Positions 23,643-38,770 of a DNA stretch of 64,000 bases are shown in pieces (the stretch's first letter is position 1; each line of letters begins with the position of its first letter). Source of the stretch: an uncultured Rubrobacteraceae bacterium (GTDB lineage Bacteria; Actinomycetota; Rubrobacteria; Rubrobacterales; Rubrobacteraceae); the NCBI GenBank assembly GCA_902806085.1, contig CADCVH010000100.1, forward strand, positions 1 to 64,000, read 5' to 3'. A model generated the notes under the pieces. It was not told the DNA's origin. It made no database searches and saw only the letters and a list, made by a program, of their open reading frames with translations. The translations under genes were made by a program, and so were the position numbers.

Positions 23643-24719
23643 ATGGACGTTAGAGCGCGGGCGATGAGGCAGGGCGTTATTCGGCGGTTTCGCGAATGGT
23701 TGCCGGAGATACCCGAGGGGGCCGTGACGACCATAGGCGAGGGGGATACGCCCCTGATCGAAGCCCCCACGCTCTCAGAACGCGTCGGCGCCAGGCTGTT
23801 CCTGAAGTTCGAGGGGATGAACCCCACGGCCTCCTTCAAGGACCGCGGGATGACGGTCGCCATGAGCCGGGCCGTCGCCGCCGGCAGCCGCGCCTGCGTC
23901 TGCGCCTCGACCGGGAACACCGCCGCGTCCGCGGCGGCCTACGCCGCGCGGGCGGGTATCAAGTGCTTCGTGGTGGTGCCGGCGGGGAAGATCGCTCTGG
24001 GCAAGGCGGTGCAGGTGCTGGCCCACGGGGCCGAGATCGTGCAGATAGAGGGCAACTTCGACGCCGCCTTGCGGATCTCGCAGGAGATCGCGGGCGAACG
24101 CGACGACGTGACGCTCGTCAACTCCGTGAACCCGGACCGCATCGAGGGCCAGAAGACCGGTGCCTTCGAGGTCTGCGAGGTGCTCGGGACCCCCCCTGAC
24201 GCCCTCGCCCTGCCGGTCGGCAACGCGGGCAACATCACCTCCTACTGGAAGGGCTTCTCCGAGTGGCGCGAGGCCGGGTACTCCGACTCGGCGCCCCGGA
24301 TGCTCGGCTTCCAGGCCGAGGGGGCCTCCCCGCTGGTGGCCGGCCACGACTTCGAGAACCCGGAGACCGTGGCGAGCGCCATCAGGATCGGGGCGCCTGC
24401 GAGCAAGAGGGGCGCATTGAACGCCGCCACCGAATCCGGCGGCGCCATAGAGAGCGTGACGGACGGGGAGATCCTGGCGGCCCAGAACCTTCTCGCCAGG
24501 GAGGAGGGCGTCTTCTGCGAGCCGGCGAGCGCCGCCGGCCTGGCCGGGCTTCTCAAGCTGGCCGAGGAAGGGCGCGGCCCCGAAGGCACCGTCGTAGGCG
24601 TGCTTACCGGGCACGGGCTCAAGGACCCCGATGTCGTATCGAGCAGGGTCGAGTTGCCCCGGCCGGTGGCGGCGACGCATCAGGCCGTGGCGGGACGAAT
24701 GGAGAGGCTCGTCACGTGA
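23643..24719 (+). CDS. thrC: Threonine synthase
   Basis: 358 residues, PLP-dependent, converting O-phosphohomoserine to threonine. GEGDTPLIEAP, LKFEGMNPTASFKDRGMTVAMSRA (Schiff-base Lys in SFKDRG), CASTGNTAASAAAYAARAG and the phosphate loop PVGNAGNITSYWKGF are all present. Length matches the short actinobacterial class. ATG 23643 follows AAAGG; an ATG at 23664 is possible. The stop overlaps thrB by four bases (GTGA), as expected for coupled translation. Confidence 0.95.
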   Translation: MDVRARAMRQGVIRRFREWLPEIPEGAVTTIGEGDTPLIEAPTLSERVGARLFLKFEGMNPTASFKDRGMTVAMSRAVAAGSRACVCASTGNTAASAAAYAARAGIKCFVVVPAGKIALGKAVQVLAHGAEIVQIEGNFDAALRISQEIAGERDDVTLVNSVNPDRIEGQKTGAFEVCEVLGTPPDALALPVGNAGNITSYWKGFSEWREAGYSDSAPRMLGFQAEGASPLVAGHDFENPETVASAIRIGAPASKRGALNAATESGGAIESVTDGEILAAQNLLAREEGVFCEPASAAGLAGLLKLAEEGRGPEGTVVGVLTGHGLKDPDVVSSRVELPRPVAATHQAVAGRMERLVT

Positions 24720-25609
24720 TCTCCGTCCGCGTCCCGGCCACCTCGGCGAACCTGGGGCCAGGCTACGACGCGGTGGGGCTGGCGCTCTCCCTGAGCACCC
24801 GCATATCCCTGGACCGGGCGTCGCACCCGAAGGTGGAGGTCACGGGGACGGGGGCCGACCTCGTCCCCTTGGGCCCCGAGCACCCGGCCTACCGGGCCGC
24901 CCGGTTCGTGGCCGAGGTCGTCGGCGAGGGGGAGGTCTCGTTCCACCTCGTCCAGGAGAACGACATACCGCCCATTCGCGGGCTCGGCGGGAGCGCGGCG
25001 GCGCTCGTGGGCGGGGCGGTGGCGGCAAACGAGCTCTTCGGCGGCCAGATCGCCCCGCCCGACCTCCTGAACATCGTCTGCGAGCTCGACGGCCACCCGG
25101 ACAACGCCGCCCCCGCCCTGCTCGGCGGCCTCGTCATAGGCACCCTCACCCCGATGGGCGTAAGCTCCGTGCGCCTCGAACCGAAGGACCTCGCCGTCGC
25201 GGTCGCCGTCCCGGACTTCGCCGTCTCGACCACGGCCGCCCGCAGCGCCCTCCCCGAGAACGTCTCCCACCGCGACGCAGCCTTCAACGTCGGCCGCTCC
25301 GGCCTCCTCCTCGGGGCACTGGCGACCGGCGAGTACCACCTCCTCCGCGTGGCCATGCAGGACCGCCTCCACCAGCCCTACCGCGCCCACCTCGTCCCCG
25401 GCCTCGAAAGCGTCATAGAGGCCGCGCTCGCCCACGGCGCCCACGGCGCCTGCCTCTCCGGCTCGGGCCCGACCGTGCTGGCCTTCACGCCGGTGGAGAG
25501 GGCCCCGGCCGTGGCCGCCGCGATGAAGAAGACCTTCGAGGCGGGAGGGGTGGAGGCACGGTCCTGGGCGCTGGAGGTGGACCTCATGGGCGCGCGGGTC
25601 GAGCCGTAG
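24716..25609 (+). CDS. thrB: Homoserine kinase
   Basis: 297 residues of the GHMP kinase family. VRVPATSANLGPGYDAVGLAL (substrate-binding N-terminus), IPPIRGLGGSAAALVGGAVAAN (ATP loop) and GACLSGSGPTVLAF (C-terminal GHMP motif) are in place. It makes the O-phosphohomoserine used by the preceding thrC. Homoserine dehydrogenase is not in the window. Confidence 0.95.
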   Translation: MISVRVPATSANLGPGYDAVGLALSLSTRISLDRASHPKVEVTGTGADLVPLGPEHPAYRAARFVAEVVGEGEVSFHLVQENDIPPIRGLGGSAAALVGGAVAANELFGGQIAPPDLLNIVCELDGHPDNAAPALLGGLVIGTLTPMGVSSVRLEPKDLAVAVAVPDFAVSTTAARSALPENVSHRDAAFNVGRSGLLLGALATGEYHLLRVAMQDRLHQPYRAHLVPGLESVIEAALAHGAHGACLSGSGPTVLAFTPVERAPAVAAAMKKTFEAGGVEARSWALEVDLMGARVEP

Positions 25610-25678
25610 GGGAGCGAATCAGTCCATCGGACGACGGAGAATCCTTCTATCGACGGATTCGCGGCGGTGCGCGGCCGG

Positions 25679-26187
25679 CTACTCTTGTGTCGTGGCCGGG
25701 AAGGATGAGTCCCCCCTCCGACCTTCCCGGCCCACGTTTTCGCCCGTCTCCGGCGATGGTGACTGGATCTCCCGCCGGTACCCGGCCTCCCTCCAAGAGA
25801 GACGCTTTCCACGGAGGGAGAACGGCGCGATCAGGGCCCCGAGGCCCTGCACGGCGCACGCCCCGACGAGTACCGCCGCGGCCCCGCCAGGCCGCCGGCC
25901 AGCGAGCCGCGGCGAACAGCACGAGGCCGGCCACGAAGACCAGCCGCCGGCCGTAGATGTTCGCCACCCTTCCGCCGAGCAGCAAGAAGCCGCCGAACGT
26001 CAGTACGTAGCCCGTGATGATCCACTGCAGGCCCGCCCGCGACAGCCCGAGCTCGTCCCGGATGGCCGGCAGCGCCACGTTGACTATCGAAAAGTCCGGG
26101 ACGACCATGAACCGCGCGGCGCACAACAACGCCAGCGACCGGCGACCACCCACGACCTTGCTCAAAAAACCGCCCTCATTTGCCACG
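25679..26187 (-). pseudogene. Decayed N-terminal fragment of a DHA2-type MFS transporter
   Basis: The minus strand encodes MVVPDFSIVNVALPAIRDELG, LQWIITGYVLTFGGFLLLGGR and RRLVFVAGLVLFAAA, the first helices and motif A region of EmrB/QacA-like drug exporters. A base appears lost near 25905, shifting to a frame with SLAGGLAG, then a further shift gives AVLVGACAVQGLGALIAPFSLRG, after which homology stops and the frame ends at 25679. At least two frameshifts plus loss of about ten helices mean the gene is dead. The exact ends are approximate. Confidence 0.75.
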
Positions 26188-26246
26188 AACCCCTTACAAT
26201 CTGTTTCTTTCGAGGACACCGCGCTATCAAACGGGGGTTTTGCGGC

Positions 26247-26274
26247 TTGACAAGCCTCTACCGTTATGTAACCC
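26247..26274 (+). promoter_or_regulatory. Candidate promoter for the ilv operon
   Basis: A consensus -35, TTGACA, lies at 26247-26252. The -10 is poor at normal spacing (TAACCC at 26269-26274); a better-looking TATGTA at 26265 is too close. It lies about 100 bp upstream of the leader peptide. Confidence 0.35.
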
Positions 26275-26355
26275 TTCATCCCACTTGTGCAGATGAGTGA
26301 GCGAGGATTCTTGACGGAAGTCTCAAAAACGGCGCAGAAGAAGGTCTCGGGCCTG

Positions 26356-26478
26356 ATGCTCAAGATCCTACGCCTGCTCACCCCTCCCATCCACCCGCGA
26401 GTACCCTCGCTAGCCGTACCCTCCGCCCTACGACTAATTATCGGGGCGGGCCGGGGCGGCGCCCTCCGGTTCGCCTAG
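26356..26478 (+). CDS. Putative branched-chain amino acid leader peptide upstream of ilvB
   Basis: ATG 26356 opens a 40-codon frame that begins MLKILRLLTPPIHPRVPSLA and contains SALRLIIGAG near its end. Nine Leu, four Ile and two Val codons make up over a third of it, and four of the Leu codons are CTA, a codon expected to be rare in DNA this GC-rich. AGAAGAAGG lies 11 bases before the ATG. GGCCGG (26449-26454) can pair with CCGGCC (26507-26512), GTTCG with CGAAC (26469-26473 with 26482-26486), and CGGG with CCCG (26489-26502). The stop lies 81 bases before ilvB. It fits an attenuation leader for Leu/Ile/Val supply. Confidence 0.55.
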   Translation: MLKILRLLTPPIHPRVPSLAVPSALRLIIGAGRGGALRFA

Positions 26479-26558
26479 AGCCGAACGGCGGGGTCTCTCC
26501 CGTCTTCCGGCCGAGGGGTTACTTTCTCAAGACCGACAGACATAGGGATGGGACGACC

Positions 26559-28262
26559 GTGGAAAACACCGCTTTTAACGTCGAATACAAGCCGCGCACC
26601 GGAAGCGAGGCCATGTGCGAGGCCCTGCTGGACGAGGGCGTCGAGTACCTCTTCGGGTACCCTGGCGGGGCCATCATGCCGTTCTACGACGCCCTTCCGG
26701 ACTACCCGCTAAAGCACGTCCTCACCCGCCACGAACAGGCCGCCGCCCACGCCGCCGACGGCTACGCCCGGGCGACGAACCGCGTAGGCGTGGTCGTGGC
26801 GACGAGCGGGCCCGGGGCCACGAACCTCGTTACCGGCCTCGCGACCGCGCAGATGGACTCGGTCCCGCTCGTGGCGATCACGGGCCAGGTCGGGCGTCCC
26901 GCGCTCGGCAAGGACTCGTTTCAGGAGACCAACGTGATGGGCATGACGCTGCCCTTCACGAAGCATTCTTTTCTCGTGGAAGACCCGGACGAGCTGTACC
27001 CGACGATGAGGCGGGCCTTCGAGATCGCGCGCAGCGGCAGGCCCGGCCCCGTCCTCGTGGACGTTCCAAAGGACGTCCAGTTCGCGGCCTGCAACGACAA
27101 CGGCTACCGCAGGCTGCGCGAGGCGCCGACGCGGGTCGAGTCGCCGGGGCTGGAGCGGGCCGCGATGCTGCTCAGGAACGCGAAGCGCCCGCTCATCCTG
27201 GCCGGCCACGGCGTCACGCTGGCGGGGGCTGAGAAGGAGCTCAGGCTCCTCGCCGAGAGGACCGGCATCCCGGTCGTGACGACGCTGCTCGGCATAAGCG
27301 CCTTCCCCGACGACCACCCGCTCTACCTCGGTTGGCCGGGCATGCACGGGCAGGCGAGCGTCAACCGGGCGATCGATCGGTCCGACCTCCTCTTCGCCGT
27401 CGGGATGCGCTTCGACGACAGGATCACGGGCGCCGTCGCCAAGTTCGCCCCGAACGCCAAGGTCATCCACATAGACGTCGATCCCTCGGAGCTCGGCAAG
27501 GTCGTGAAGCCGACCATCGGCATCGCCGAGGACGCGAAGGCGGCGATGCGCTCCGTGCTCGGGCACCTCGAAGACATCCCCCAAGGGGAAGGTTGCTCCG
27601 CGTGGCGCGAGGAGCTTGCGAAGACCCAGCAGCCGGAGAAGAGGCGCGAGGAGTCGGCGCGCGGGGAGTACGGGCCTATCCAGGTCATGGAGGCCATAAA
27701 GAAGGTCGCCGGCCCGGACATGCGCCTGGTCACCGACGTCGGCCAGCACCAGATGTGGGCCGCCCAGTTCTTCGAGTTCACGAAGCAGAACAGCCACATC
27801 ACCAGCGGCGGCCTCGGCACGATGGGCTTCTCGCTGCCGGCGGCGATGGGTGTTGCTTTTGCCTACCCCGACGAGCCGGTCTGGGTCGTCGCGGGCGACG
27901 GCGGCTTCCAGATGAACATCCAGGAGCTCGCCACGATCCGGGACTTCGGCCTGAACATAAAGGTCGCCGTGCTGAACAACGGCTACCTCGGCATGGTCCG
28001 CCAGTGGCAGCAGTTCTTCCACAACCGCCGCTACTCGGAGACGCCCATAACGGGCCCCGACTACGAGAGGCTCACCGCCGCCTACGGCCTGGCCGGGCGC
28101 GCGGTCCGCGAGGGCGACGACGTGGAGGGGGCCGTCCGTTGGGCCGAGGAGCAGGACGGGTGCGTGATCCTGGACTTCCACATAGACCCGGAGAAGAACG
28201 TCTACCCCATGATCCCCTCGGGCATGAGCGTCAACGAGATGATCGAGGAAGATGGCGCCTGA
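26559..28262 (+). CDS. ilvB: Acetolactate synthase large subunit
   Basis: 567 residues. The three thiamine-enzyme domains are complete: the N-terminal domain with the catalytic Glu in LTRHEQAAAHAADGYARA (about residue 59), the central domain (about 205-335), and the C-terminal ThDP domain with VVAGDGGFQMNIQELATI and LNNGYLGMVRQWQ (about 444-490). GTG start after GGGATGGGACGACC. It makes acetolactate and acetohydroxybutyrate for Val, Leu and Ile. The next gene overlaps it by 11 bases. Confidence 0.96.
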   Translation: MENTAFNVEYKPRTGSEAMCEALLDEGVEYLFGYPGGAIMPFYDALPDYPLKHVLTRHEQAAAHAADGYARATNRVGVVVATSGPGATNLVTGLATAQMDSVPLVAITGQVGRPALGKDSFQETNVMGMTLPFTKHSFLVEDPDELYPTMRRAFEIARSGRPGPVLVDVPKDVQFAACNDNGYRRLREAPTRVESPGLERAAMLLRNAKRPLILAGHGVTLAGAEKELRLLAERTGIPVVTTLLGISAFPDDHPLYLGWPGMHGQASVNRAIDRSDLLFAVGMRFDDRITGAVAKFAPNAKVIHIDVDPSELGKVVKPTIGIAEDAKAAMRSVLGHLEDIPQGEGCSAWREELAKTQQPEKRREESARGEYGPIQVMEAIKKVAGPDMRLVTDVGQHQMWAAQFFEFTKQNSHITSGGLGTMGFSLPAAMGVAFAYPDEPVWVVAGDGGFQMNIQELATIRDFGLNIKVAVLNNGYLGMVRQWQQFFHNRRYSETPITGPDYERLTAAYGLAGRAVREGDDVEGAVRWAEEQDGCVILDFHIDPEKNVYPMIPSGMSVNEMIEEDGA

Positions 28263-28872
28263 GGCGACGGGCGCGGCGCAGAGCACCGTCAAGATCCGCC
28301 TGGCCGCCGGTATCCTCGCCCTCAACCGCCTCACGATGACCCTCCAGAACAAACGCATGCCCGTCACGGACCTCAAGATGCGCGGCGACGCGGGCGGGAC
28401 GAGCATCGAGCTCGGCTTCGACTGCCCGGAAGATTCCGCCCGGCGCTACGCGGTGCTGCTGGAGAACATGGAGGACGTGGAGGAGCTCCACTTCGCGGCA
28501 ACCGCGTCCGAAGGCCGGAACGAAGGACCTGTAGACTACGAAGGCCGGCGGTTCCGGTCGGTAGAAAACTCGGAGACGGGCGAGGTAGGCCCCGGGACCG
28601 TGTTCGGCTACAGGCAGGACGGGGACGTCGTCAGCGCGACCTACGAGGGGGGCGGCGTCCGGTTCGGGACCCTGATCGCAACCGTGGACGGCGAGGGCAA
28701 ACTCGACGCCAGGTACGGGCACGTAAACGCCTCGGGCGGGCTGATGACCGGCGAGTGCCGTTCCACGCCGGAGGTTTTGCCCGACGGGCGCGTCCGGCTG
28801 CACGAAGAGTGGAGGTGGACCTCGGGGGACCGCTCCTGCGGCCGGTCCGTCGTCGAAGAGATAGGAGACTGA
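28252..28872 (+). CDS. ACT (IlvM-like) domain fused to a beta-rich domain annotated elsewhere as 'n-acetylglutamate synthase'
   Basis: 206 residues at the position where the acetolactate synthase small subunit normally sits, between ilvB and ilvC. Residues of about 12-82 look like an ACT domain: [57 protein letters not shown] align in order with the short regulatory subunit IlvM. Residues of about 92-206 ([67 protein letters not shown]) match a stand-alone family of about 110 residues often labelled n-acetylglutamate synthase without evidence. The role is inferred as the IlvB regulatory subunit; the tail's function is unknown. ilvC starts one base after the stop. Confidence 0.7.
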
Positions 28873-28873
28873 T

Positions 28874-29896
28874 ATGGCCCGCGTGTACCGCGAAGGCGAC
28901 ATAGGAGACGAGATCACGGGCAGGAAGGTCGCGGTCCTGGGCTACGGCAGCCAGGGCCACGCCCATGCCCTGAACCTGAAAGAATCCGGCTGCGACGTCA
29001 CGGTCGGCCTCTACGAGGGCTCCAAGAGCTGGCCGAAAGCGGAAGGGGACGGCCTGCCGGTCACGACCATCGCCGACGCGGTGCGGCAGGCCGACGTGGT
29101 GATGATGCTCCTCCCGGACGAGAGGCAGCCGGCGGTCTTCGAGGCCGAGGTCAGGGAGAATCTGTCCGAGGGCGACCTGATGCTCTTCGCCCACGGCTTC
29201 AACATCCACTTCAACCAGATCGTCGTCCCGCCGGGGGTCGACCTCGGCCTCGTCGCCCCGAAGGGGCCCGGCCACGTCCTGCGGCGTATGTACGTGGAGG
29301 GCAAGGGCATGCCCTCGCTCTTCGCCATCCAGAGCGACGCCTCGGGGCAGGCCAGGGGCGTCGTCCTCTCCTACGCCCGCGCCATCGGGAGCGGCAGGGC
29401 CGGGATCATAGAGACGACGTTCGCCGAGGAGACCGAGACGGACCTCTTCGGGGAGCAGGCGGTGCTCTGCGGCGGCCTCTCGGCGCTGCTGACGGCGGGG
29501 TTCGAGACGCTGGTCGAGGCCGGGTACCAGCCGGAGCTCGCGTACTACGAGTGCGTCAACGAGCTGAAGCTCATAGTCGACCTCATCTACGAGGGCGGGT
29601 TGGCGGGGATGCGGTACTCGATCTCGAACACCGCCGAGTACGGCGACTACACCGCCGGCCCGAAGATAGTGGACGCCGCCGTAAAGGAGAGGATGCGCGG
29701 CATCCTGACCGACATCCAGACGGGCAAGTGGGCCAAGGAGTGGGTGCTGGAGAACCAGGCCGGCGGCCCGAGCTTCCTCGCCATGCGCCGCAGGCAAGCC
29801 GAGATGCAGGTGGAGAAGGTCGGGGCGGAGCTTCGGGCGCTCGCGGCGGAGGGCGCCGAGGCGTCCGCGGCGAGCCCGGCGGGGGGTGTCAGCTAG
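28874..29896 (+). CDS. ilvC: Ketol-acid reductoisomerase
   Basis: 340 residues, class I length. [21 protein letters not shown] is the NAD(P)H loop; [43 protein letters not shown] (magnesium-binding Asp/Glu) and [22 protein letters not shown] are all conserved. It isomerises and reduces acetolactate. AGGAG precedes the ATG. ilvE begins on the base right after its stop codon. Confidence 0.97.
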
Positions 29897-30853
29897 ATGA
29901 GTCGCAAGGCGTTCGCCGCGAACGACGCGGATTGGTGCTACCACGACGGGGAGCTACAGAAGCTGGGCGAGGTGCGGCTCTCCCCCGCGACCCACGCCCT
30001 GAACTACGGGACGGGCGTGTTCGAGGGCATCCGGGCGTACTGGAACGAGGAACGCGGGACGCTCCAGGTCCTCAAGCTGCGCGAGCACTACGAGCGGTTC
30101 GAGAAGAGCTGCCGGATGCTCCGCGTGGACCTGCCGCACACCGTCGACGAGCTGTGCGACATAACCCTGGAGATCCTCAAGCGCAACGCCCCGCGCCAGG
30201 ACACCTACATCCGGCCTTTGGCCTACAAGGGCGCCACCTCGGTCGGGGTGAACCTGCTGGGCGCGTCGCAGCTCTCCATCTTCACGGTTCCGATGGGCAA
30301 CTACGTGGAATTGACGGGCCTCAAGTGCTGCGTCGCCTCGTGGCGGCGCACGCCGGACACCTCGATCCCGGCCCGGGCCAAGCTGACGGGCTCTTACATA
30401 AACACGGCGCTCGCGGTGGACGAGGCGCACCGGTCCGGCTACGACGACGCCATCTTCCTCACCCAGGACGGCCACGTCTCCGAGGCGAGCGCCGCCAACA
30501 TCTTCCTGGTCCGCAAGGGGCGGATCATCACGCCGCCGGTCACGGCGGACATCCTGGAGGGCATCACGCGCGACGCGGTCATGGAGCTCGCCGAGAAGGA
30601 GATGGGGATGCCCGTCACCGAACGCGACGTGGACCGCACGGAGCTCTACGCGGCCGACGAGGTGTTTCTCTCCGGCACGGGGTTCCAGATAGCGCCCGTC
30701 ACGGAGGTGGACGACCGCGCAATAGGAACGGGCAGCATCGGGCCCGTCGCCGAGCGTTTGCAGGAGCTGTACTTCAAGGCGGCCCGCGGCGTCTGGGACG
30801 AGTACACGGATTGGACCGTCGCCGTCGAGGTTGCGGAGGGGGCGCGGCAGTGA
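29897..30853 (+). CDS. ilvE: Branched-chain amino acid aminotransferase
   Basis: 318 residues, class IV PLP fold. LSPATHALNYGTGVFEGIRAYW, YIRPLAYKG, the Schiff-base Lys in PARAKLTGSYINT (about 175-187), and SEASAANIFLVRKGRIITPP plus SGTGFQIAPVTEVD match BCAT. It performs the final transamination to Leu, Ile and Val. No spacing separates it from ilvC. Confidence 0.94.
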   Translation: MSRKAFAANDADWCYHDGELQKLGEVRLSPATHALNYGTGVFEGIRAYWNEERGTLQVLKLREHYERFEKSCRMLRVDLPHTVDELCDITLEILKRNAPRQDTYIRPLAYKGATSVGVNLLGASQLSIFTVPMGNYVELTGLKCCVASWRRTPDTSIPARAKLTGSYINTALAVDEAHRSGYDDAIFLTQDGHVSEASAANIFLVRKGRIITPPVTADILEGITRDAVMELAEKEMGMPVTERDVDRTELYAADEVFLSGTGFQIAPVTEVDDRAIGTGSIGPVAERLQELYFKAARGVWDEYTDWTVAVEVAEGARQ

Positions 30854-30869
30854 GATACTGCCGCCTTGC

Positions 30870-31067
30870 GTGAGCACTAACCGGAAATCCTACGTCGGCG
30901 CGGCCGGCTTGCTGCTGTGTGTCTGGCTGGCTATCGCGTTTTTGGCCCCGGAGGGGAGTCTCTGGGGTGCGCTCCGCTTCCCCGTGGCGCTCGCGTTCGG
31001 CCTGGTATCGCTCCCCGCGCTCTTCGGGCCGACGGACGATCCTTTGAAGAAGTGGCATCGTGGCTGA
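30870..31067 (+). CDS. Small two-helix membrane protein
   Basis: About 65 residues from GTG 30870. Two hydrophobic stretches (about 9-27, VGAAGLLLCVWLAIAFLA; about 33-52, LRFPVALAFGLVSLPALF) with a basic C-terminus KKWHRG suggest two membrane helices. No family recognised. The ribosome site is weak. It sits between ilvE and the leuA leader and its end overlaps the putative leader peptide start. Confidence 0.5.
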   Translation: MSTNRKSYVGAAGLLLCVWLAIAFLAPEGSLWGALRFPVALAFGLVSLPALFGPTDDPLKKWHRG

Positions 31068-31155
31068 GTACGAGGTTCAAACCGTTCTTTCCGCTCTCGT
31101 CATCCTACGACTAACCGGGGTGGCCGCCGGGCGAATTACAAGCCCCGGTCTCTAA
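31060..31155 (+). CDS. Putative leucine/valine leader peptide upstream of leuA
   Basis: GTG 31060 opens a 31-codon frame starting VAEYEVQTVLSALVILRLTG and ending ITSPGL. Its middle, codons GTT CTT TCC GCT CTC GTC ATC CTA CGA CTA, is rich in Val, Leu and Ile, with CTA used twice. AGAAGTGG lies just before the GTG, and the start overlaps the stop of the small membrane protein. The 10-mer CTACGACTAA (31105-31114) is identical to one in the ilvB leader. Position, composition and the nearby alternative hairpins suggest an attenuation leader. Confidence 0.5.
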   Translation: MAEYEVQTVLSALVILRLTGVAAGRITSPGL

Positions 31156-31174
31156 CCGGCTGCCCCCGGCCACC
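31114..31174 (+). promoter_or_regulatory. leuA: Alternative hairpins of the leuA leader
   Basis: Three stems are visible. ACCGGGG (31114-31120) pairs with CCCCGGT (31143-31149). CCGGT (31145-31149) pairs with ACCGG (31155-31159). GGTGGCC (31119-31125) pairs with GGCCACC (31168-31174). The first excludes the other two, and the second can nest inside the third. The first arm begins right after the CTA CGA CTA codons, so ribosome position should choose between folds. No T-run follows, so the outcome could be Rho-dependent or translational. Confidence 0.5.
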
Positions 31175-31226
31175 AGTCTCTCAGCGCCAGAGCATTCCAA
31201 CGTAGGTTTGTAGGAGGAACAGAGTT

Positions 31227-32768
31227 ATGCGTCGAGTAGAGATCTTCGACACGACCCTTCGCGACGGCGAGCAGTCGCCCGGCATCTCCCTCTCGGTAGA
31301 GGAGAAGGTCGAGGTGGCCCGCCAGCTCGCCCGCCTGAAGGTCGACGTCATAGAGGCAGGCTTCCCGATTACTTCCGAGGGAGACTTCGAGTCGGTGTCC
31401 CGGATCGCCGCGGAGGTGAAGGGGCCCCGTATCGCGGGCCTCGCCCGCCTCCACGGAGAGGACATCCGCCGGGCCTGGGAGGCCGTCCAGTGGTCCGACA
31501 GGCCCCGCATCCACACCTTCGTCGGGACGAGCGATCTCCACATCGAGCACCAGATGCGCTCGAACCAGGGGGACATTCTGAAGCGGGCGGGCGAGGCGGT
31601 GGCGTTCGCCAAGGGCCTCTGCCCCAACGTCGAGTTCTCCCCGATGGACGCCACGCGGACGGACATCGGCTTTCTCTCTGAGGTGGTCGCCGCGGCGGTC
31701 GAGGCCGGGGCGGACGTCGTCAACATCGCTGACACCGTCGGCTACACGACGCCGGTCGAGTTCTCAGCCTTCTTGCAGGAGCTTCAAAACAGGGTGCCGA
31801 AGCTGAAGGAGCGGACGCTCTCCGTGCACTGCCACGACGACCTCGGGATGGCGGTCGCGAACTCGCTCGCGGGGGTCGAGGTCGGGGCCGGGCAGATCGA
31901 GGTCGCCGTGAACGGCATCGGGGAGCGGGCCGGTAACGCTAGCCTCGAAGAGGTCGTGATGGCGCTCGCCACGCGCGGCGATTTCTACGGCGTCGAGGTC
32001 GGCGTGGAGACCAAGCAGCTCGCGAACACGAGCCGCATGGTCTCGAACATGACGGGTTACGAGGTGCCGCCGAACAAGGCCATAGTCGGCAGGAACGCCT
32101 TTTTGCACGAGTCCGGCATCCACCAGGACGGCGTGCTCAAGGACAGGCGGACGTTCGAGATCATGACGAAGGAGGACATCGGCCTCGAAGGCACGAACAT
32201 CTTCCTCGGCAAGCACTCGGGCCGCCACGCCCTCAAGGACGCCCTCGAAGAGCTCGGCTACGTCGTGGAGGGCGAGGTCCTCAAGCGCGCCTTCGTCCGC
32301 TTCAAGGAGATAGCCGACCACAAGAAGACCGTCACCGCCGCCGACCTCGAGGCCATAGCCGCAGACGAGGTAGGCTCCTTCGAGGGCAAGTTCGTCCTCG
32401 ACTCCTTCCGGGTCGTCGCCGCGACCGGCCGCCAGAGCCGGGCCGCCGTGACCATCTCCCACGCCGAGCAGGGCACCTTCGAGGCCGAGGCCGAGGGCGA
32501 GGGCCCGGTGGACGCGGTCTTCCGCGCCGTCGACGCCGCCACGAACATGAAGGGCCGCCTGACGGACTTCCGGATAGACGCCGTGACGGGCGGCAAGGAC
32601 GCTTTGGGCGAGGTGCGGGTCTCCGTCGAGTTCGAGGGCAACGAGTACGCCGGGCGCGGCCTCTCCCAGGACGTCGTGGAGGCGGCGGCCCGGGCCTACG
32701 TGCGGGCGGCGAACGTGTACTCCGCCGGGCGGGTGAAATCGCCGTGGGAAGCCCCGGTAGCGCCGTAG
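31227..32768 (+). CDS. leuA: 2-Isopropylmalate synthase
   Basis: 513 residues. [24 protein letters not shown] opens the TIM barrel; [63 protein letters not shown] (metal His-x-His) and [20 protein letters not shown] follow. Residues of about 365-505 form the C-terminal leucine-binding regulatory domain, so leucine feedback is expected. GTAGGAGGAACAG precedes the ATG. First committed step of leucine synthesis; leuC and leuD are not in the window. Confidence 0.96.
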
Positions 32769-33520
32769 AGGCGCCCCGCCGGGGCGTCTCCCCTGGGCCA
32801 CTTCCGGGCTACCACCGTCTGGACGGCCCCGTTCCCCTCTTCCACGCCCCGCGTCTCGCAGATCAGGCGCGGGAGGTGCGAGGGCATCTGACGCTGGGCG
32901 CCGGCGCGCTCGCCGGCGTCCTTGGGACCGGGACGCCGGGGCTTTCGGCCCTCCTCGTCGCCGACGAGGACTGGGGCGAAGCGCCGCGCGATAACGAGCG
33001 TCCTTACCCGGCCGGCCTGCCGTACTTCACGCGCTCCGCCGAGCCCCCGGCGCTCGTACTGCCGGAGGAACTATCCCCGGTCTTCCGGCCCCGGACGGGG
33101 GCGCTGCTGCCGCTCACCGTCTGGCACGAGCTGGCACACGCCTTCCTGCTGGACCGGGAGGTGGTCAGGACGCCGGTGTGGCTGGGCGAGCTCGCGCCGC
33201 AGGCGGCCTCGGTGGCGGTCGCCCGCAGGGTCGGGCTGCCGCTGGAGGGGCACCTGGGGAGCCTGGATCCCGCCCCCGGCTTCACAGTGCGGGGCTTCGC
33301 GGGCCCGGCGGGGGCCGAGGAACAGATGAAGTTCCAGAACCTCCTGCTCCTCCTCGGCGCGGCGGCGCTCGAGGAGTTTGGGGAAGGTTTCCTCGGGCGC
33401 ATCTTTCGGGCGCTGTGGGAGGAGAGAGACGTGGTCGGGGGGGCGCGGGCGGAGGAGTTGCTCGCGGGCGCTCTAGGGCCGGGTGGACGAGAGTGGCTCC
33501 GGTCGAGGCCGGGGTTCTAG
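32744..33520 (+). CDS. Uncharacterised protein with HExxH metallopeptidase-like motif
   Basis: About 258 residues, no family recognised. A central [21 protein letters not shown] carries HELAH, followed about 20 residues later by [19 protein letters not shown], which could give a third metal ligand (Glu) as in gluzincins. The C-terminal 80 residues are helical. The GTG start overlaps the end of leuA by 25 bases; the true start could lie further in. It sits between leuA and leuB, which is unusual for a peptidase. Zinc binding and activity are inferred from the motif only. Confidence 0.6.
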
Positions 33521-33529
33521 GAGGATCGG

Positions 33530-34597
33530 ATGCGCGACTCTTTTAACATACTATTGCTACCGGGCGACGGCATCGGGCCGGAGGTGATCGGGGCCGCGCG
33601 CGGGGTGATGGACGTAGCGGCGGAGCATTTCGGCGTGAAGCTCTCCTACGAGGAGCGCCTGATCGGGGGTGCGGCCATACGCGACGAAGGCGGCCCCGTC
33701 TCAGACGGGACGCTGGAGGCGGCCGAAGCCTCAGACTCGGTCATGCTCGGGGCGGTAGGCCACCCGGACTTCGACGACGCGCCCGTGAGGCCCGAGGCGG
33801 GCCTGCTCAAGCTCCGCAAGCACCTCGGGGCGTTCGCCAACTTGCGGCCCGTCGCGGCGGTGCCGGCGTTGCTCGGCTCCTCTCCGCTCAAGAAGGAGGT
33901 CGTGGAGGGGGTCGACGTCCTGATCGTGCGCGAGCTTACCGGCGGCGCGTACTTCGGGGAGAAGGAGGAGGGCACCGAAAGGGCGAGCGACCTCTCCGTC
34001 TACACCAGGGAGGAGATCGACCGGGTTGCCCGCGTCGCTTTCGACGCCGCCAAACGCAGGAAGCGCCGCGTGACGAGCGTGGACAAGGCGAACGTCATGG
34101 CGACGGGCCGCCTGTGGCGCCGGGTCGTCACCGAGGTCGCGAAAAGCTACCCCGACGTCGAGCTCGACCACGTGCTGGTGGACGCGGCGGCGATGCACCT
34201 CGTCAGGGAGCCCAGGCGCTTCGACGTGATGCTAACGGAGAACCTGTTCGGGGACATACTCTCCGACGAGGCGGCGATGCTCCCCGGTTCGATGGGGATG
34301 CTCCCGAGCGCGTCGCTTGGGGATCCCGGCTCGCCGGGCATCTTCGAGCCCGTCCACGGCTCCGCCCCGGACATCGCAGGTCTGGGCAAGGCGAACCCCT
34401 ACGCCGCGATCCTCTCGGCGGCGATGATGTTCCGCCACTCCTTGGGACGCCCCGACGTGGCGGAGGCCATCGAGCAGGGCGTCTCCGTGGCGCTTGAGGC
34501 GCACTACCTGACAGCCGATCTTGACGGAAACAAGACCACCGAGCAGGTGGCCCAAGCCGTCGGCCGGTGGGTCGGGGCCGGGGAGGGCGTGGCATGA
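33530..34597 (+). CDS. leuB: 3-Isopropylmalate dehydrogenase
   Basis: 355 residues. ILLLPGDGIGPEVIGAARGVMD, LLKLRKHLGAFANLRPV, VRELTGGAYFGEKEE, TSVDKANVMATGRLWRRVV, and LTENLFGDILSDEAAMLPGSMGMLPSASLG define the bacterial LeuB family. It oxidises and decarboxylates 3-isopropylmalate. AGGAGGATCGG precedes the ATG, and its stop overlaps cimA (ATGA). In organisms with CimA it can also act on the citramalate branch. Confidence 0.95.
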   Translation: MRDSFNILLLPGDGIGPEVIGAARGVMDVAAEHFGVKLSYEERLIGGAAIRDEGGPVSDGTLEAAEASDSVMLGAVGHPDFDDAPVRPEAGLLKLRKHLGAFANLRPVAAVPALLGSSPLKKEVVEGVDVLIVRELTGGAYFGEKEEGTERASDLSVYTREEIDRVARVAFDAAKRRKRRVTSVDKANVMATGRLWRRVVTEVAKSYPDVELDHVLVDAAAMHLVREPRRFDVMLTENLFGDILSDEAAMLPGSMGMLPSASLGDPGSPGIFEPVHGSAPDIAGLGKANPYAAILSAAMMFRHSLGRPDVAEAIEQGVSVALEAHYLTADLDGNKTTEQVAQAVGRWVGAGEGVA

Positions 34598-36153
34598 GCA
34601 TAAGGCTCTTCGACACCACTTTAAGGGACGGCACGCAGCGCGAGGGCGTGAGCCTGACGACGGAGGACAAGATCCGGATAGCCACGGAGCTCGACACTTT
34701 AGGCCTCCACTACATAGAGGCGGGCTTCCCCGCCTCAAACCCAAAGGACCTCGAGTTCTTCGAGAGCTTCGACGCATCGGGGCTAAAGAACGCGAGGCTC
34801 GTGGCCTTCACGCGGGCGCGGCGCCCGAACGGCCGCGCGGACGAAGACCCGGCGGTGACGCTCCTCCCCGCCCTCGCGGCCCCCGTCGCGTGCATCGTCG
34901 CCAAGAGCTGGAAGCTGCACGTCGAGAAGGTCCTCAGGACCTCCCCGGAGGAGAACATCGAGTCCGTCAAGGACACGGTCTCCTACCTCGTCGATGCCGG
35001 AAAAGAGGTCCTCTTCGACGCCGAGCACTTTTTCGACGGCTTCAGGGACGACCCCGACCACGCGCTCGCGGTCCTGCGGGCGGCGGCGGGGGCCGGGGCG
35101 GCGACGCTCGTCCTGTGCGACACCAACGGCGGCACCCTGCCCACGGAGCTCAAGGCGGTAGTTCAGCGGACGGTGCGGGAGTTCCCCGACGTGGAGGTCG
35201 GCATCCACACCCACAACGACGCCGGGTGCGGGGTGGCGAACGCGCTGGCGGCCGTCGAGGCCGGGGCGACACACGTGCAGGGGACGGTGAACGGCGTCGG
35301 GGAGCGGACGGGCAACTGCGACCTCGTGACCACCATAGCCAACCTGCAGCTAAAGATGGGCCTGAACGTCGTGGACGACGAGGGGCTCAAGAGGCTAACC
35401 GGGGTCTCGAACTACGTCTCCGAGCTCATGAACCTGACACCGGACACGCACCGGCCCTACGTCGGGAGGAGCGCCTTCGCCCACAAGGGCGGGCTTCACG
35501 TCGACGGCATCAGCAAGGACCCCGCCACCTACGAGCACGTCGCGCCCGAGGTCGTCGGCAACGTGCGGCGCACGCCCGTCGGAGAGCTCTCCGGCAAGAA
35601 CTCCATAAGGGCAAAGGCCGAGGAGCTTGGGTTGGACGCGGGCGACGCGACCCGGATCCTCTCCGCCATAAAAAGGCGCGAGTACGAGGGCTACCACTAC
35701 GAGGCCGCCGACGCCTCCCTGGCGCTGCTCATCGGGCGTACCGCGGGTGAGGACGCGCCCCTCTTCGAGTTGGAGACGTTCAGGATCATTAGCGAGAAAC
35801 GCGCCGACGGCCTAACGACCACCGAGGCCACGATAAAGCTCTTCGTGAGGGGCCAGAGGGTTATCTCCACCGCCGAGGGCAACGGCCCCGTCAACGCGCT
35901 GGACGGGGCGCTGAGGGAGGCCATAGGCCCCCACTACCCGGAGATCAGCGAGATACACCTCTCAAACTACAAGGTCCGCATCCTCGACGAGCACAGGGCG
36001 ACGGCCGCCACGACCCGCGTCCTCATAGACTCCACGGACGGCAAGCGCGTCTGGGGCGCGGTGGGCGTCGGGGAGAACATCATCGAGGCGAGCTGGCAGG
36101 CGCTGGTGGATGGCCTGGAGTACGGGGTCAACGGGGCGGACAAGAGGGTCTAG
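34594..36153 (+). CDS. cimA: (R)-Citramalate synthase
   Basis: 519 residues. [51 protein letters not shown] is typical of CimA rather than LeuA. VLCDTNGGTLPTEL, VGIHTHNDAGCGVANALAAVEAGATHVQGTVNGVGERTGNCDL, and FAHKGGLHVDGISKDP carry the metal-binding residues. The C-terminal third is a LeuA-type regulatory domain. It condenses pyruvate and acetyl-CoA, giving a threonine-independent route to isoleucine. The start is the ATG that overlaps the leuB stop. Confidence 0.92.
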   Translation: MSIRLFDTTLRDGTQREGVSLTTEDKIRIATELDTLGLHYIEAGFPASNPKDLEFFESFDASGLKNARLVAFTRARRPNGRADEDPAVTLLPALAAPVACIVAKSWKLHVEKVLRTSPEENIESVKDTVSYLVDAGKEVLFDAEHFFDGFRDDPDHALAVLRAAAGAGAATLVLCDTNGGTLPTELKAVVQRTVREFPDVEVGIHTHNDAGCGVANALAAVEAGATHVQGTVNGVGERTGNCDLVTTIANLQLKMGLNVVDDEGLKRLTGVSNYVSELMNLTPDTHRPYVGRSAFAHKGGLHVDGISKDPATYEHVAPEVVGNVRRTPVGELSGKNSIRAKAEELGLDAGDATRILSAIKRREYEGYHYEAADASLALLIGRTAGEDAPLFELETFRIISEKRADGLTTTEATIKLFVRGQRVISTAEGNGPVNALDGALREAIGPHYPEISEIHLSNYKVRILDEHRATAATTRVLIDSTDGKRVWGAVGVGENIIEASWQALVDGLEYGVNGADKRV

Positions 36154-36183
36154 CGCTCCGGCGTCGCGCGTCCTAGGCGCGTC

Positions 36184-37263
36184 CTAGGCGCGTCGCAGGC
36201 CGGCCGTCAGAAGGCAGAGGCTCAGGAGAAGCGCGCCGAGCGCGGCGTATGGCAGGAGCGGGATCCCGCCGGTATCCGGCACCTCCGGGGCGGCCCCCGA
36301 CAGGCAGGCCCTCGAGGCCTCCGCGGATTCGATGCCCGCGCTGTTGCCGTCCGCGGCGCCTTCGCCGAGCACCCCCTCCAGCCGGTTCGGGAAGTCAGTG
36401 AACATGCCGTCGACCCCGAGATCGATCAGCCGCCGCATGTCCGGCTCCTCGAGGAGGGTGTAGGGATGGACGGCCAGGCATCGGGTGTGCGCCGAGCCGA
36501 CGAGCCCGCGGTCCACGTCGTCCATCGAGGGGCCTATCCCGACCGCGTAGCCCCCGGCCGATTCCAGGTCGGCCCGTATTGTCCCGCCCGTCTCCTCGTC
36601 CGAGTAGAGCTGGACCAGCGGCAGCGTGGGGTCCTTGGCGTGGATCTCCTCCAGGCTGGCGGGGACGAAGGATTGGATGAGGACCCGCCAACTCCCGGCG
36701 GCGGGCTCGCCCAGGCCGTACTCGTCCATCAACCGCAGCAGCTCCTCCTCCATCCCGGAGCTGGCGTCGACGCCGGGGTTGCCCGGCGGGGCCTCGGAGC
36801 TGCGGGTCTCGACGTAGTAGTTGGTCCCGGTGCCGTAGCGCCGGAAGACCTCCTCGAGCGTCGGGATCTTTAGCCCCTCGTATTCGTCGCGCGCGTTCTC
36901 GGGGTAGCGTTCGTTGAAGAAGCTGCCCACGTCGCAGGTCTTGACCTGCTCCAGGGTCTTCTCGCCGACGGGACCGGTGCAGTTCTCCGCCGGGCCCCGG
37001 GTGGTGCGGTCCAGGTCCTCGTCGTGCAGGACGACAAGCACGCCGTCGCTGGTCATCCTGAGGTCCTGCTCTATGTAGTCGGCCCCGTTCTCAAGCGCCA
37101 GGTCGTAAGAGGCGATGGTGTGCTCCGGCGCCAGCCCCGCCGTGCCCCGGTGGCCGACGTTCACGACCGGTCCCCCCTCAAGCTCCGCGGCCTGGGCGGC
37201 CCCGGACACGCAGAAGACGGCGAGCAAGCCCGCGAGGACGGCTAGAGCCTTGGTGAGGTGCAT
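36184..37263 (-). CDS. Exported glycerophosphodiester phosphodiesterase with LPXTG-like tail
   Basis: 359 residues. A signal peptide (about 1-25, ending AAQA) precedes a GDPD domain: VVNVGHRGTAGLAPEHTIASYDLALENGADYIEQDLRMTSDGVLVVLHDEDLDRTT contains the catalytic His pair and metal-binding Glu/Asp. TNYYVETR and MFTDFPNRL match later blocks. The C-terminus is VPDTGG, a hydrophobic helix, then LRRA, a sortase-type anchor with a VPDTG motif in place of LPXTG. It would release glycerol phosphate from phosphodiesters at the cell surface. It is paired with the alkaline phosphatase just upstream. Confidence 0.88.
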   Translation of the reverse strand: MHLTKALAVLAGLLAVFCVSGAAQAAELEGGPVVNVGHRGTAGLAPEHTIASYDLALENGADYIEQDLRMTSDGVLVVLHDEDLDRTTRGPAENCTGPVGEKTLEQVKTCDVGSFFNERYPENARDEYEGLKIPTLEEVFRRYGTGTNYYVETRSSEAPPGNPGVDASSGMEEELLRLMDEYGLGEPAAGSWRVLIQSFVPASLEEIHAKDPTLPLVQLYSDEETGGTIRADLESAGGYAVGIGPSMDDVDRGLVGSAHTRCLAVHPYTLLEEPDMRRLIDLGVDGMFTDFPNRLEGVLGEGAADGNSAGIESAEASRACLSGAAPEVPDTGGIPLLPYAALGALLLSLCLLTAGLRRA

Positions 37264-37294
37264 CGCTACCCCCGTTCGCTAGTAGTGTGTCGTC

Positions 37295-38770
37295 CTACCC
37301 GTCTCCGCGCAGGACTCGCCTCGAAACCAGGATCCCCAGGCCACCCAGCGCCCCCGCCAGGACCACGAGCCAGGGCCCGACCGACGGTCCGCCCGTGTCG
37401 GGCATCCGCTGCGCGTCCGCAGAGGCGGACGCCGTGGAGGACGCAGAGGCGGACGTTGTGGAGGTGGCGGGTGCGGAGACGGACGGCGGTGAAGAGCCGA
37501 AGAGGGCGTCGAGCATCGCGTCGTGTATGTGCGTGTTCTCGTAGACGCCGACCAGGTTCTCTCCCCCGGGTCCCATGGCCGTCACCGGCACGTCTTCGGC
37601 CGTGTGGTTGGCGGTGGTCCAGTCGACCAGGAACTTCTTGTCGGAGTTCGCCACCCGCAACGGCCCGTCCTCGGAGGTCCGCCCCTCGCCCGACTCGTTC
37701 GGATAGGCGGGGTCGCTCTGGATCTCGTTGGTGTCCTCAATGGCGAGGCTCCCCGTCTCGTGGTCGGCCGCGACGATCACGAGCGTTTCGGCATCGCTCT
37801 CTGCAAAGGACTTTCCGACCTCTACGGCCTCGTCGAGCTGCCGTCCGGCCTCTATGACGAGCTCCGCGTTGCTCTGGTGGGCCATCTCGTCGATGCCCTC
37901 CTCCTCGACCATGAGGAGGAAGCCGTCGGGGTCCTGCGAGAGGGTATCGATGGCCTTCTGGGTCATTTCGGAGAGGGCGACCTGGGGGTCGTAGACGGCG
38001 CCCTCTCCTTCGGGGTTTTGCTGGAACATCTCCTCGTTGGCGAAGAGCCCGAGGAGGCGTGGCCCGCCCGCGGCCCGAAGCTCGGCGGCGTCCGTCGCGT
38101 ACTCGTAGCCGAGGTCCCGGGCCTTCCGGACGAGGTTGCCCTCCGTGCCGGCGCTCTTCTCCTCGGGGTCCACCTCCGGCTCGTCGGGGTGGGCGCCGGG
38201 GTTGTCCTCGGGATACCAGTAGTCCTCGCCGCCGCCCAGGATCACCTCGGGTTTGCTCTCTTCGAGGTACTGGCGGGCGATCTCGCTCTGCTCGTCCCGG
38301 TCGGCGACGTGGGAGCCGAACGAGGCGGGGGTCGCGTCGGTTATCTGGCTGTTGCTGACCAGCCCCGTCGCCTTCCCGGCCCTCTCGGCCCGCTCGAGCA
38401 CGGTCGGGACCGGGTTTTCTTCCGCGTCTATGCCGACGGCGCCGTTGAAGGTCTTGACCCCGCTGGCTATGGCCGTTCCTCCGGCGGCGGAGTCGGTGAC
38501 GAACGCCTCGGGATCCAGGGGGCTGGTCCCTGACCTTCCGGCGTACGGCATCGCGTCCATGGCGAGCTGGCCCTCGGTTCCGACGGTCGCGTAACGGATG
38601 AGGTCGCGCTGGGAGGTACCCATCCCATCCCCTATAAAGATTATGACGTTCTTCGCCCGCCCGTCCGCCGACCCGGCCTCCTGGGCCTCCCCCGCCCCCG
38701 CCGGCGCCAGGGCCGTGATCAGCGCGAACAACATCGCCGCAACGCATTTGCCACGCACCGTGGTAGGCAC
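37295..38770 (-). CDS. Exported alkaline phosphatase with LPXTG-like tail
   Basis: About 491 residues. After a signal peptide, KNVIIFIGDGMGTSQRDLIRYATVG and FVTDSAAGGTAIASGVKTFNGAVGID carry the metal-binding Asp and catalytic Ser of the PhoA superfamily; VEEEGIDEMAHQSN and IVAADHETGS carry further metal ligands. The C-terminus has a low-complexity Ser/Ala/Thr linker, then MPDTGG, a hydrophobic helix and basic RRVLRGDG, a sortase-type signal. I prefer GTG 38770 because AGGAGG is seven bases upstream; the ATG at 38776 is too close to it. It probably works with the GDPD enzyme in phosphate scavenging. Confidence 0.88.
   Translation of the reverse strand: MPTTVRGKCVAAMLFALITALAPAGAGEAQEAGSADGRAKNVIIFIGDGMGTSQRDLIRYATVGTEGQLAMDAMPYAGRSGTSPLDPEAFVTDSAAGGTAIASGVKTFNGAVGIDAEENPVPTVLERAERAGKATGLVSNSQITDATPASFGSHVADRDEQSEIARQYLEESKPEVILGGGEDYWYPEDNPGAHPDEPEVDPEEKSAGTEGNLVRKARDLGYEYATDAAELRAAGGPRLLGLFANEEMFQQNPEGEGAVYDPQVALSEMTQKAIDTLSQDPDGFLLMVEEEGIDEMAHQSNAELVIEAGRQLDEAVEVGKSFAESDAETLVIVAADHETGSLAIEDTNEIQSDPAYPNESGEGRTSEDGPLRVANSDKKFLVDWTTANHTAEDVPVTAMGPGGENLVGVYENTHIHDAMLDALFGSSPPSVSAPATSTTSASASSTASASADAQRMPDTGGPSVGPWLVVLAGALGGLGILVSRRVLRGDG

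Follow-up and report, generated by a model that had tools for sequence, protein, structure and literature searches.

A conserved leader upstream of leuA in Rubrobacterales as a candidate leucine-responsive translational attenuator

Introduction

A question raised by the branched-chain biosynthesis genes of this Rubrobacteraceae genome is "What controls leuA, when a leader peptide gene of its own lies between ilvE and leuA?" The window we analyzed is a 64,000-nucleotide stretch of contig CADCVH010000100.1, in which these genes are arranged as follows:

26559-28262, ilvB
28874-29896, ilvC
29897-30853, ilvE, with its stop codon at 30851-30853
31227-32768, plus strand, leuA, 2-isopropylmalate synthase of the TIGR00973 type
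33530-34597, leuB
34567-36153, cimA

A preliminary description had proposed that the leader is an internal attenuator, built from mutually exclusive hairpins, that sets the expression of leuA apart from that of ilvBCE. Our comparison of related genomes identified a conserved leader ORF with rare Leu codons, two conserved stems (P1 and P3), in most lineages a third pairing (P0) with the leuA Shine-Dalgarno sequence, and no intrinsic terminator. We consider that the leader is a leucine-responsive translational attenuator with a probability of roughly 0.6, a reading drawn from sequence comparison and folding models.

Two other proteins are encoded within the run. The first, of 206 aa (28252-28872), lies between ilvB and ilvC in the position expected for ilvN; it had no Pfam match at the cut-off, and its first third resembles a short regulatory (ACT-like) domain, judged by eye only. 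The second, of 258 aa (32744-33520), lies between leuA and leuB and has a WHELAHAF stretch (of the HExxH kind), and no known family was found for it. The Rfam 15 covariance models gave 0 matches at E<=1 over positions 24000-38000.

Results

A leader conserved in Rubrobacterales

Three features define the leader frame:

31060-31155, plus strand, leuA leader ORF of 31 codons, GTG at 31060 to TAA at 31153-31155, start uncertain
31105-31113, plus strand, CTA CGA CTA (Leu-Arg-Leu), the regulatory codons, assigned from their invariance and codon rarity
31131-31142, plus strand, the invariant stretch GCGAATTA and following bases, in which CGA ATT is invariant in 32/32 leaders despite the codons being rare

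Direct reading of the frame from GTG 31060 to TAA 31155 gives MAEYEVQTVLSALVILRLTGVAAGRITSPGL followed by the stop, so that the 31-codon frame with its CTA CGA CTA lies just where the preliminary description had put it. The GTG start is peculiar to the window genome, and the leaders of relatives start differently. LeuA was detected in 35 of 39 Rubrobacterales genomes (it was not found at E 1e-150 in G005, G007, G009 and G031) and 34 leaders were readable. A covariance model (R1) built from 32 of these leaders found the element upstream of leuA at E below 1e-8 in 34 of the 39 genomes, the fifth genome without a match being G035, whose leuA sits at a contig end. The leaders share the core CTACGACTA-ACCAGGGTGG-C-CCGGGCGAATTAYCMGYCCCGG-stop-CCGGG-GGCCACC.

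When model R1 was run against 396 Actinomycetota genomes there was no strong match beyond the Rubrobacterales family. Six weak outside matches (E 0.016-0.075) were returned and none resembled a leuA leader when the stretches were inspected; the two for which ORFs were listed (L070 and L073) are both inside long ORFs. A pattern scan of the GTDB collection identified 17 contigs, all labelled Rubrobacter, Rubrobacteraceae, Actinomycetota or Actinobacteria, and showed that the complete Rubrobacter marinus chromosome (NZ_CP045121.1) carries the element.

The sample was delimited as follows. Left out were L021, in which the contig ends upstream of leuA, L108, in which a contig end cuts the leader, and two leuA copies read at less than full length; the leuA of G033 is truncated and its leader is on another contig. 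L035 was omitted as a near-duplicate of L033, as was L036 from the P3 and codon-invariance counts and from the codon-by-codon scan, and both were retained among the 34 leaders of the duplex, best-partner and footprint-block tests. Clade labels for thinning were set by hand from genus and sequence similarity.

Is the leader translated? In the alignment of relatives, wherever a leader has indels within the frame, their lengths are divisible by three; among them are codons inserted into CTA CGA CTA and 24 nt inserted in both L027 and L031. Because the indels preserve the frame, the leader ORF is probably translated. The leader has two regulatory Leu codons flanking one Arg codon, with a third Leu codon in some relatives, and the stop codon of the leuA leader is 48 nt beyond the first CTA.

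Stems P1 and P3 are conserved and the antistem is not

31119-31125, plus strand, 5' arm of P1, GGTGGCC, pairing with 31168-31174
31168-31174, plus strand, 3' arm of P1, GGCCACC, pairing with 31119-31125
31145-31159, plus strand, P3, CCGGT at 31145-31149 with ACCGG at 31155-31159, the stop codon in or at the loop

The three stems of the preliminary description, with their mutual exclusions, are borne out by direct reading: ACCGGGG (31114-31120) complements CCCCGGT (31143-31149), starts one base after the CTA codons, and is incompatible with both P1 and P3. What relatives conserve is only part of this arrangement. P1 (GGUGGCC:GGCCACC) pairs completely in 32 of 33 leaders, and its two variants, GGUGACC:GGUCACC and GGUGGUC:GACCACC, are both compensated. 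P3 (CCCGGY:RCCGGG) forms 6/6 pairs in 22 of 32 leaders and at least 5 in 31/32, shuffles giving an expectation of about 4 at the observed level, and it brackets the leader stop codon in every leader. Only 6 of 33 leaders have the whole of the antistem ACCGGGG:CCCCGGT, since most relatives carry ACCAGGG, and five of the six belong to the window's own close group. We therefore rejected the antistem as a conserved, mutually exclusive antiterminator. A further candidate from folding, P2 (GGGC:GCCC adjoining P1), was paired in 24 of 32 leaders against 19 expected in shuffles, and for that reason we make no claim for it.

Leader codons are predicted to pair with the leuA Shine-Dalgarno sequence

31093-31110, plus strand, 5' strand of P0, an anti-Shine-Dalgarno formed by leader codons, CTA CGA among them
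31208-31225, plus strand, 3' strand of P0, containing the leuA Shine-Dalgarno AGGAGG at 31212-31217

When the leader was folded together with the leuA start, the codons around CTACG formed a base stem with the leuA Shine-Dalgarno sequence and its spacer. This pairing, P0, is the main one of the leader; it was overlooked in the first reading, and it seems to be the one that matters most. At its longest it reaches up to 17 bp (L024). In 18 of 34 cases no other part of the leader is a better partner for the Shine-Dalgarno sequence than the CTACG region (median rank 0), and P0 is weak or absent in L019, L025, L027, L032, L034, L036 and L037.

Do the two strands of P0 belong together within a species? 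Duplexes between strands of the same species had a mean energy of -15.6 kcal/mol, versus -14.4 kcal/mol for cross-species duplexes (permutation p 0.0009, n=34, near-duplicates included), and with one leader per clade (19 clades) the own-species advantage had a median p of 0.016, own pairing giving no advantage in 7 of the 19. Part of this complementarity is automatic, because the Leu codons and the Shine-Dalgarno sequence are each constrained for other reasons.

The preliminary description had suggested RNA folding under a ribosome-footprint constraint as a check, and its outcome agrees with a ribosome-dependent switch. In the model a 30-nt footprint was blocked, positioned so that its A site held the first CTA. 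Placing the footprint there raised the predicted accessibility of the Shine-Dalgarno sequence in 26 of 34 leaders and lowered it in 7, and a footprint at the stop codon raised it in only 2 of 34. Moving the block codon by codon along 32 leaders gave mean changes between +0.16 and +0.19 as far as the first CTA, +0.17 on it, +0.08 at the second CTA and about 0 from 21 nt downstream onward. The Shine-Dalgarno sequence is thus predicted to be exposed with a ribosome on or before the first CTA and not with one further on, the size of the effect in the folding model being modest (mean accessibility 0.25 to 0.40). Since the effect of the block is about 0 downstream, the part of the leader that follows the CTA codons would be long enough for a terminating ribosome to permit P0 to close. 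In most but not all lineages the Shine-Dalgarno sequence is predicted to be sequestered by pairing with the upstream ORF.

The output of the leader and its putative promoter

What would the output of such a switch be? No U-tract follows P1 (31 of 33 leaders have <=3 T per 8-nt window in the next 15 nt) and a scan of the plus strand between 26000 and 31300 gave no terminator-like site. An intrinsic terminator ahead of leuA was rejected on these two grounds, which also make a translational or a Rho-dependent output likelier than intrinsic termination.

In the Rho-dependent case, the untranslated RNA past the leader stop would let Rho terminate transcription, with the stalled ribosome or P0 modifying the outcome. 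That no intrinsic terminator was found is consistent with it, as is the roughly 70 nt of mostly C-rich, unstructured RNA that separates the leader stop from leuA; however, Rho control leaves the match between leader codons and the leuA Shine-Dalgarno sequence unexplained, and we think it unlikely.

Transcription attenuation, in which a stalled ribosome favours ACCGGGG:CCCCGGT and so blocks a terminator stem GGUGGCC:GGCCACC, has in its favour that the three stems exist with the exclusions described, and that related ilvB leaders in Corynebacterium (PMC10272879) and Mycobacterium (PMC13236596) are described as working in this way. The scarcity of complete antistems, together with the lack of a U-tract and of a terminator-like site on the plus strand, makes it an improbable account of leuA, and the terminator-type switch of the preliminary description is accordingly not one that we retain.

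The start of the transcript concerns two features:

30831-30859, plus strand, promoter-like box, TTGCGG at 30831-30836, 17 nt, GATACT at 30854-30859, overlapping the end of ilvE
30870-31067, plus strand, membrane-like ORF of 65 aa, its GTG 10 nt after the box

Of the 34 relatives' leaders, 24 are preceded by a box of the form TTGCNN-N17-NATACT, and in 20 of those 24 a start codon follows it by exactly 10 nt (in one via its second ATG). The box is present in L015 and L017, which have no ilvE within ~1.4 kb upstream, and it is retained in L019 although ilvE there ends ~1.2 kb upstream. Since a stricter consensus promoter scan did not list the window box at 30831-30859, conservation is the argument for a promoter here. 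We infer that the transcript starts at, or a few bases from, the codon 10 nt past the box. This box, immediately ahead of the leader and conserved in its spacing, makes it probable that leuA is transcribed on its own, as a separate transcription unit headed by the leader. The idea of an attenuator inside the ilv-leu gene run is accordingly weaker than the position between ilvE and leuA would suggest.

The 65-aa ORF was absent from the 38 other genomes of the order and had no Pfam match. It has been inserted between the box and the leader, at a place that in relatives is taken up by a short start region. An overlap of 8 nt between the end of this ORF and the leader start (GTG at 31060) suggests that the two are translationally coupled. 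In many of the leaders L006-L019 the start codon 10 nt past the box begins a frame of five codons (MKESF-like) whose end is just ahead of a TTG or GTG in the leader frame, so that reinitiation is possible there.

Invariant codons and an invariant unpaired word

The second CTA and the CGA are invariant in 32 of 32 leaders and the first CTA in 28 of 32. Among the ORFs of the window, CTA accounts for 2.6% of the codons for Leu, CGA for 5.1% of those for Arg and ATT for 3.3% of those for Ile, and CTACGACTA has just two copies in the 64 kb, one each in the ilvB and leuA leaders. None of the 32 leaders departs from the rare codons CGA, CTA, CGA and ATT at a synonymous position, yet the adjacent amino acids vary. 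On this pattern the leader RNA itself matters in addition to its probable translation. For the invariant GCGAAUUA, no pairing partner was seen by reading.

Could a protein or other factor, then, be the regulator? It would bind P1, P3 and the invariant GCGAAUUA, and the leader ORF would play a secondary part, which is what Seliverstov et al. put forward for the LEU element. A word that is invariant without a pairing partner exceeds the needs of a plain attenuator, and frozen synonymous sites also fit a binding site, but the frame-preserving indels and a stop codon that is always in the P3 loop region point to translation, and we hold a factor-centred mechanism to be rather improbable.

The near-invariance of the residues L-R-L, V, G-R-I and P, and the reappearance of LRL and the following I/T-R in the ilvB leader, might suggest that LRLT-R-V-GRI is an arrest peptide, with leucine sensed in the ribosome tunnel and not through codon starvation, but the invariance covers synonymous positions of rare codons while adjacent residues vary freely, which fits a constraint on RNA or codons better than one on the peptide and leaves this the least probable of the explanations.

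A probable sister leader upstream of ilvB

26311-26478, plus strand, ilvB leader ORF, possible starts TTG at 26311 and ATG at 26356
26385-26392, plus strand, anti-Shine-Dalgarno TCCCATCC of the ilvB leader, holding an Ile codon ATC and complementing 26546-26553
26428-26436, plus strand, the second copy of CTACGACTA in the window, in the ilvB leader

The ilvB leader (26311-26559) is deeply conserved, with a frame ...PPIHPRV... and a long hairpin finishing at the stop codon. In all the leaders listed its CCCATYC shares the reading frame of the stop codon, and CCCAUYC:GRAUGGG, the pairing of leader and Shine-Dalgarno sequence, has at least 6 bp in most of the 29 duplexes listed; in many species ATC/ATT in the leader accompanies GGA/GAA at the Shine-Dalgarno sequence. 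Strands from one species pair better than permuted ones (p 0.023, n=29; median p 0.022 over 22 clades). However, many other windows of the ilvB leader, overlapping ones included, pair equally well with the Shine-Dalgarno sequence, and blocking the leader Ile codon raised its predicted accessibility in just 14 of 29 leaders, and for these two reasons the ilvB case is weaker than that of leuA. We regard the ilvB leader as a probable sister switch.

In both leaders AAUUA followed by C is unpaired and conserved (31131-31142 and 26434-26442); no partner or function was found for the AAUUA word of either. We tentatively entertain, at somewhat less than even odds, a general scheme in which leuA (Leu, C-CTA-CG) and ilvB (Ile, CCC-ATY-C) have sister leaders, both carrying CTACGACTA, whose sensing codon lies in the anti-Shine-Dalgarno, the conserved AAUUA marking a further step, for example a programmed pause or a factor site over the stop codon.

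Discussion

How might a leucine-responsive translational attenuator of this kind work? Ribosome stalling, the direction of control and the translational output are the parts of the mechanism that we infer. From its own promoter at the end of ilvE, leuA would be transcribed into an RNA that opens with the short translated leader. If leucine is ample, ribosomes would traverse CTA CGA CTA and reach the stop codon at the P3 loop; a terminating ribosome there would leave 31093-31110 uncovered, so that P0 could form with the leuA Shine-Dalgarno sequence and spacer, held by P1, and leuA would not be translated. If leucyl-tRNA is scarce, a ribosome would stall on the rare CTA codons, within the anti-Shine-Dalgarno strand itself, which would prevent P0 and allow leuA to initiate. 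Thus, from the internal attenuator originally envisaged, we keep a leader peptide with a conserved RNA that probably senses leucine and controls leuA apart from ilvBCE, and abandon the terminator switch.

If this is correct, we have a small, bounded element in which the sensing codons and the anti-Shine-Dalgarno are the same bases, and a synonymous-codon change could separate codon sensing from RNA pairing, a point on which the Streptomyces leuA results are ambiguous.

Among known systems, the attenuators of the Corynebacterium ilvB-II motif (PMC10272879) and M. tuberculosis ilvB1 (PMC13236596) likewise have, in front of a branched-chain biosynthesis gene, a leader ORF with many branched-chain codons, but they act by transcription attenuation with a terminator and a U-tract, neither of which is seen in the Rubrobacterales leuA leader. 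A further resemblance is to the leaderless short ORFs by which mycobacteria respond to cysteine (Canestrari et al., 2020, as described in PMC9031893 and PMC13236596). These too are located at the 5' end of the mRNA or close to it, and their regulatory codons let ribosome speed control what lies downstream; they differ in that the amino acid sensed is cysteine rather than leucine.

The nearest counterpart is the LEU element (Seliverstov et al., 2005, PMC1262725), an actinomycete leuA leader whose Leu codons pair with the leuA Shine-Dalgarno sequence. In Streptomyces coelicolor, mutations in the leuA leader peptide had some effect, inconsistent with classical attenuation, and because of this misfit the authors favoured a protein factor (PMC1262725). 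Rubrobacter enters the text of that paper solely as one of the genomes listed and as the source of a transposase, and searches of an open-access collection listed no other paper that describes the present element. The LEU element and the Rubrobacterales leader share their position upstream of leuA, a leader ORF with Leu codons, a base stem between Leu codon and Shine-Dalgarno sequence (here in most lineages) and the lack of an obvious terminator. They differ in the enzyme encoded, which is of the TIGR00973 type in Rubrobacterales and of the TIGR00970 type in actinomycetes with LEU elements; perhaps in the RNA, where the LEU element has a conserved pseudoknot inside the base stem and nested P1 and P3 were identified in the Rubrobacterales leader; and in the invariant unpaired word, which LEU elements lack (PMC1262725). 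We rejected homology between the two, as no shared core was seen by eye in six stretches upstream of TIGR00970-type leuA genes from five genomes and model R1 gave no strong match beyond its own family in the 396 genomes. By these comparisons the element is like the LEU element in logic and unrelated to it in sequence. If our reading holds, leucine-codon control of leuA translation reaches a deep actinobacterial lineage; that both the RNA and the LeuA family are unrelated there suggests that the same logic arose twice.
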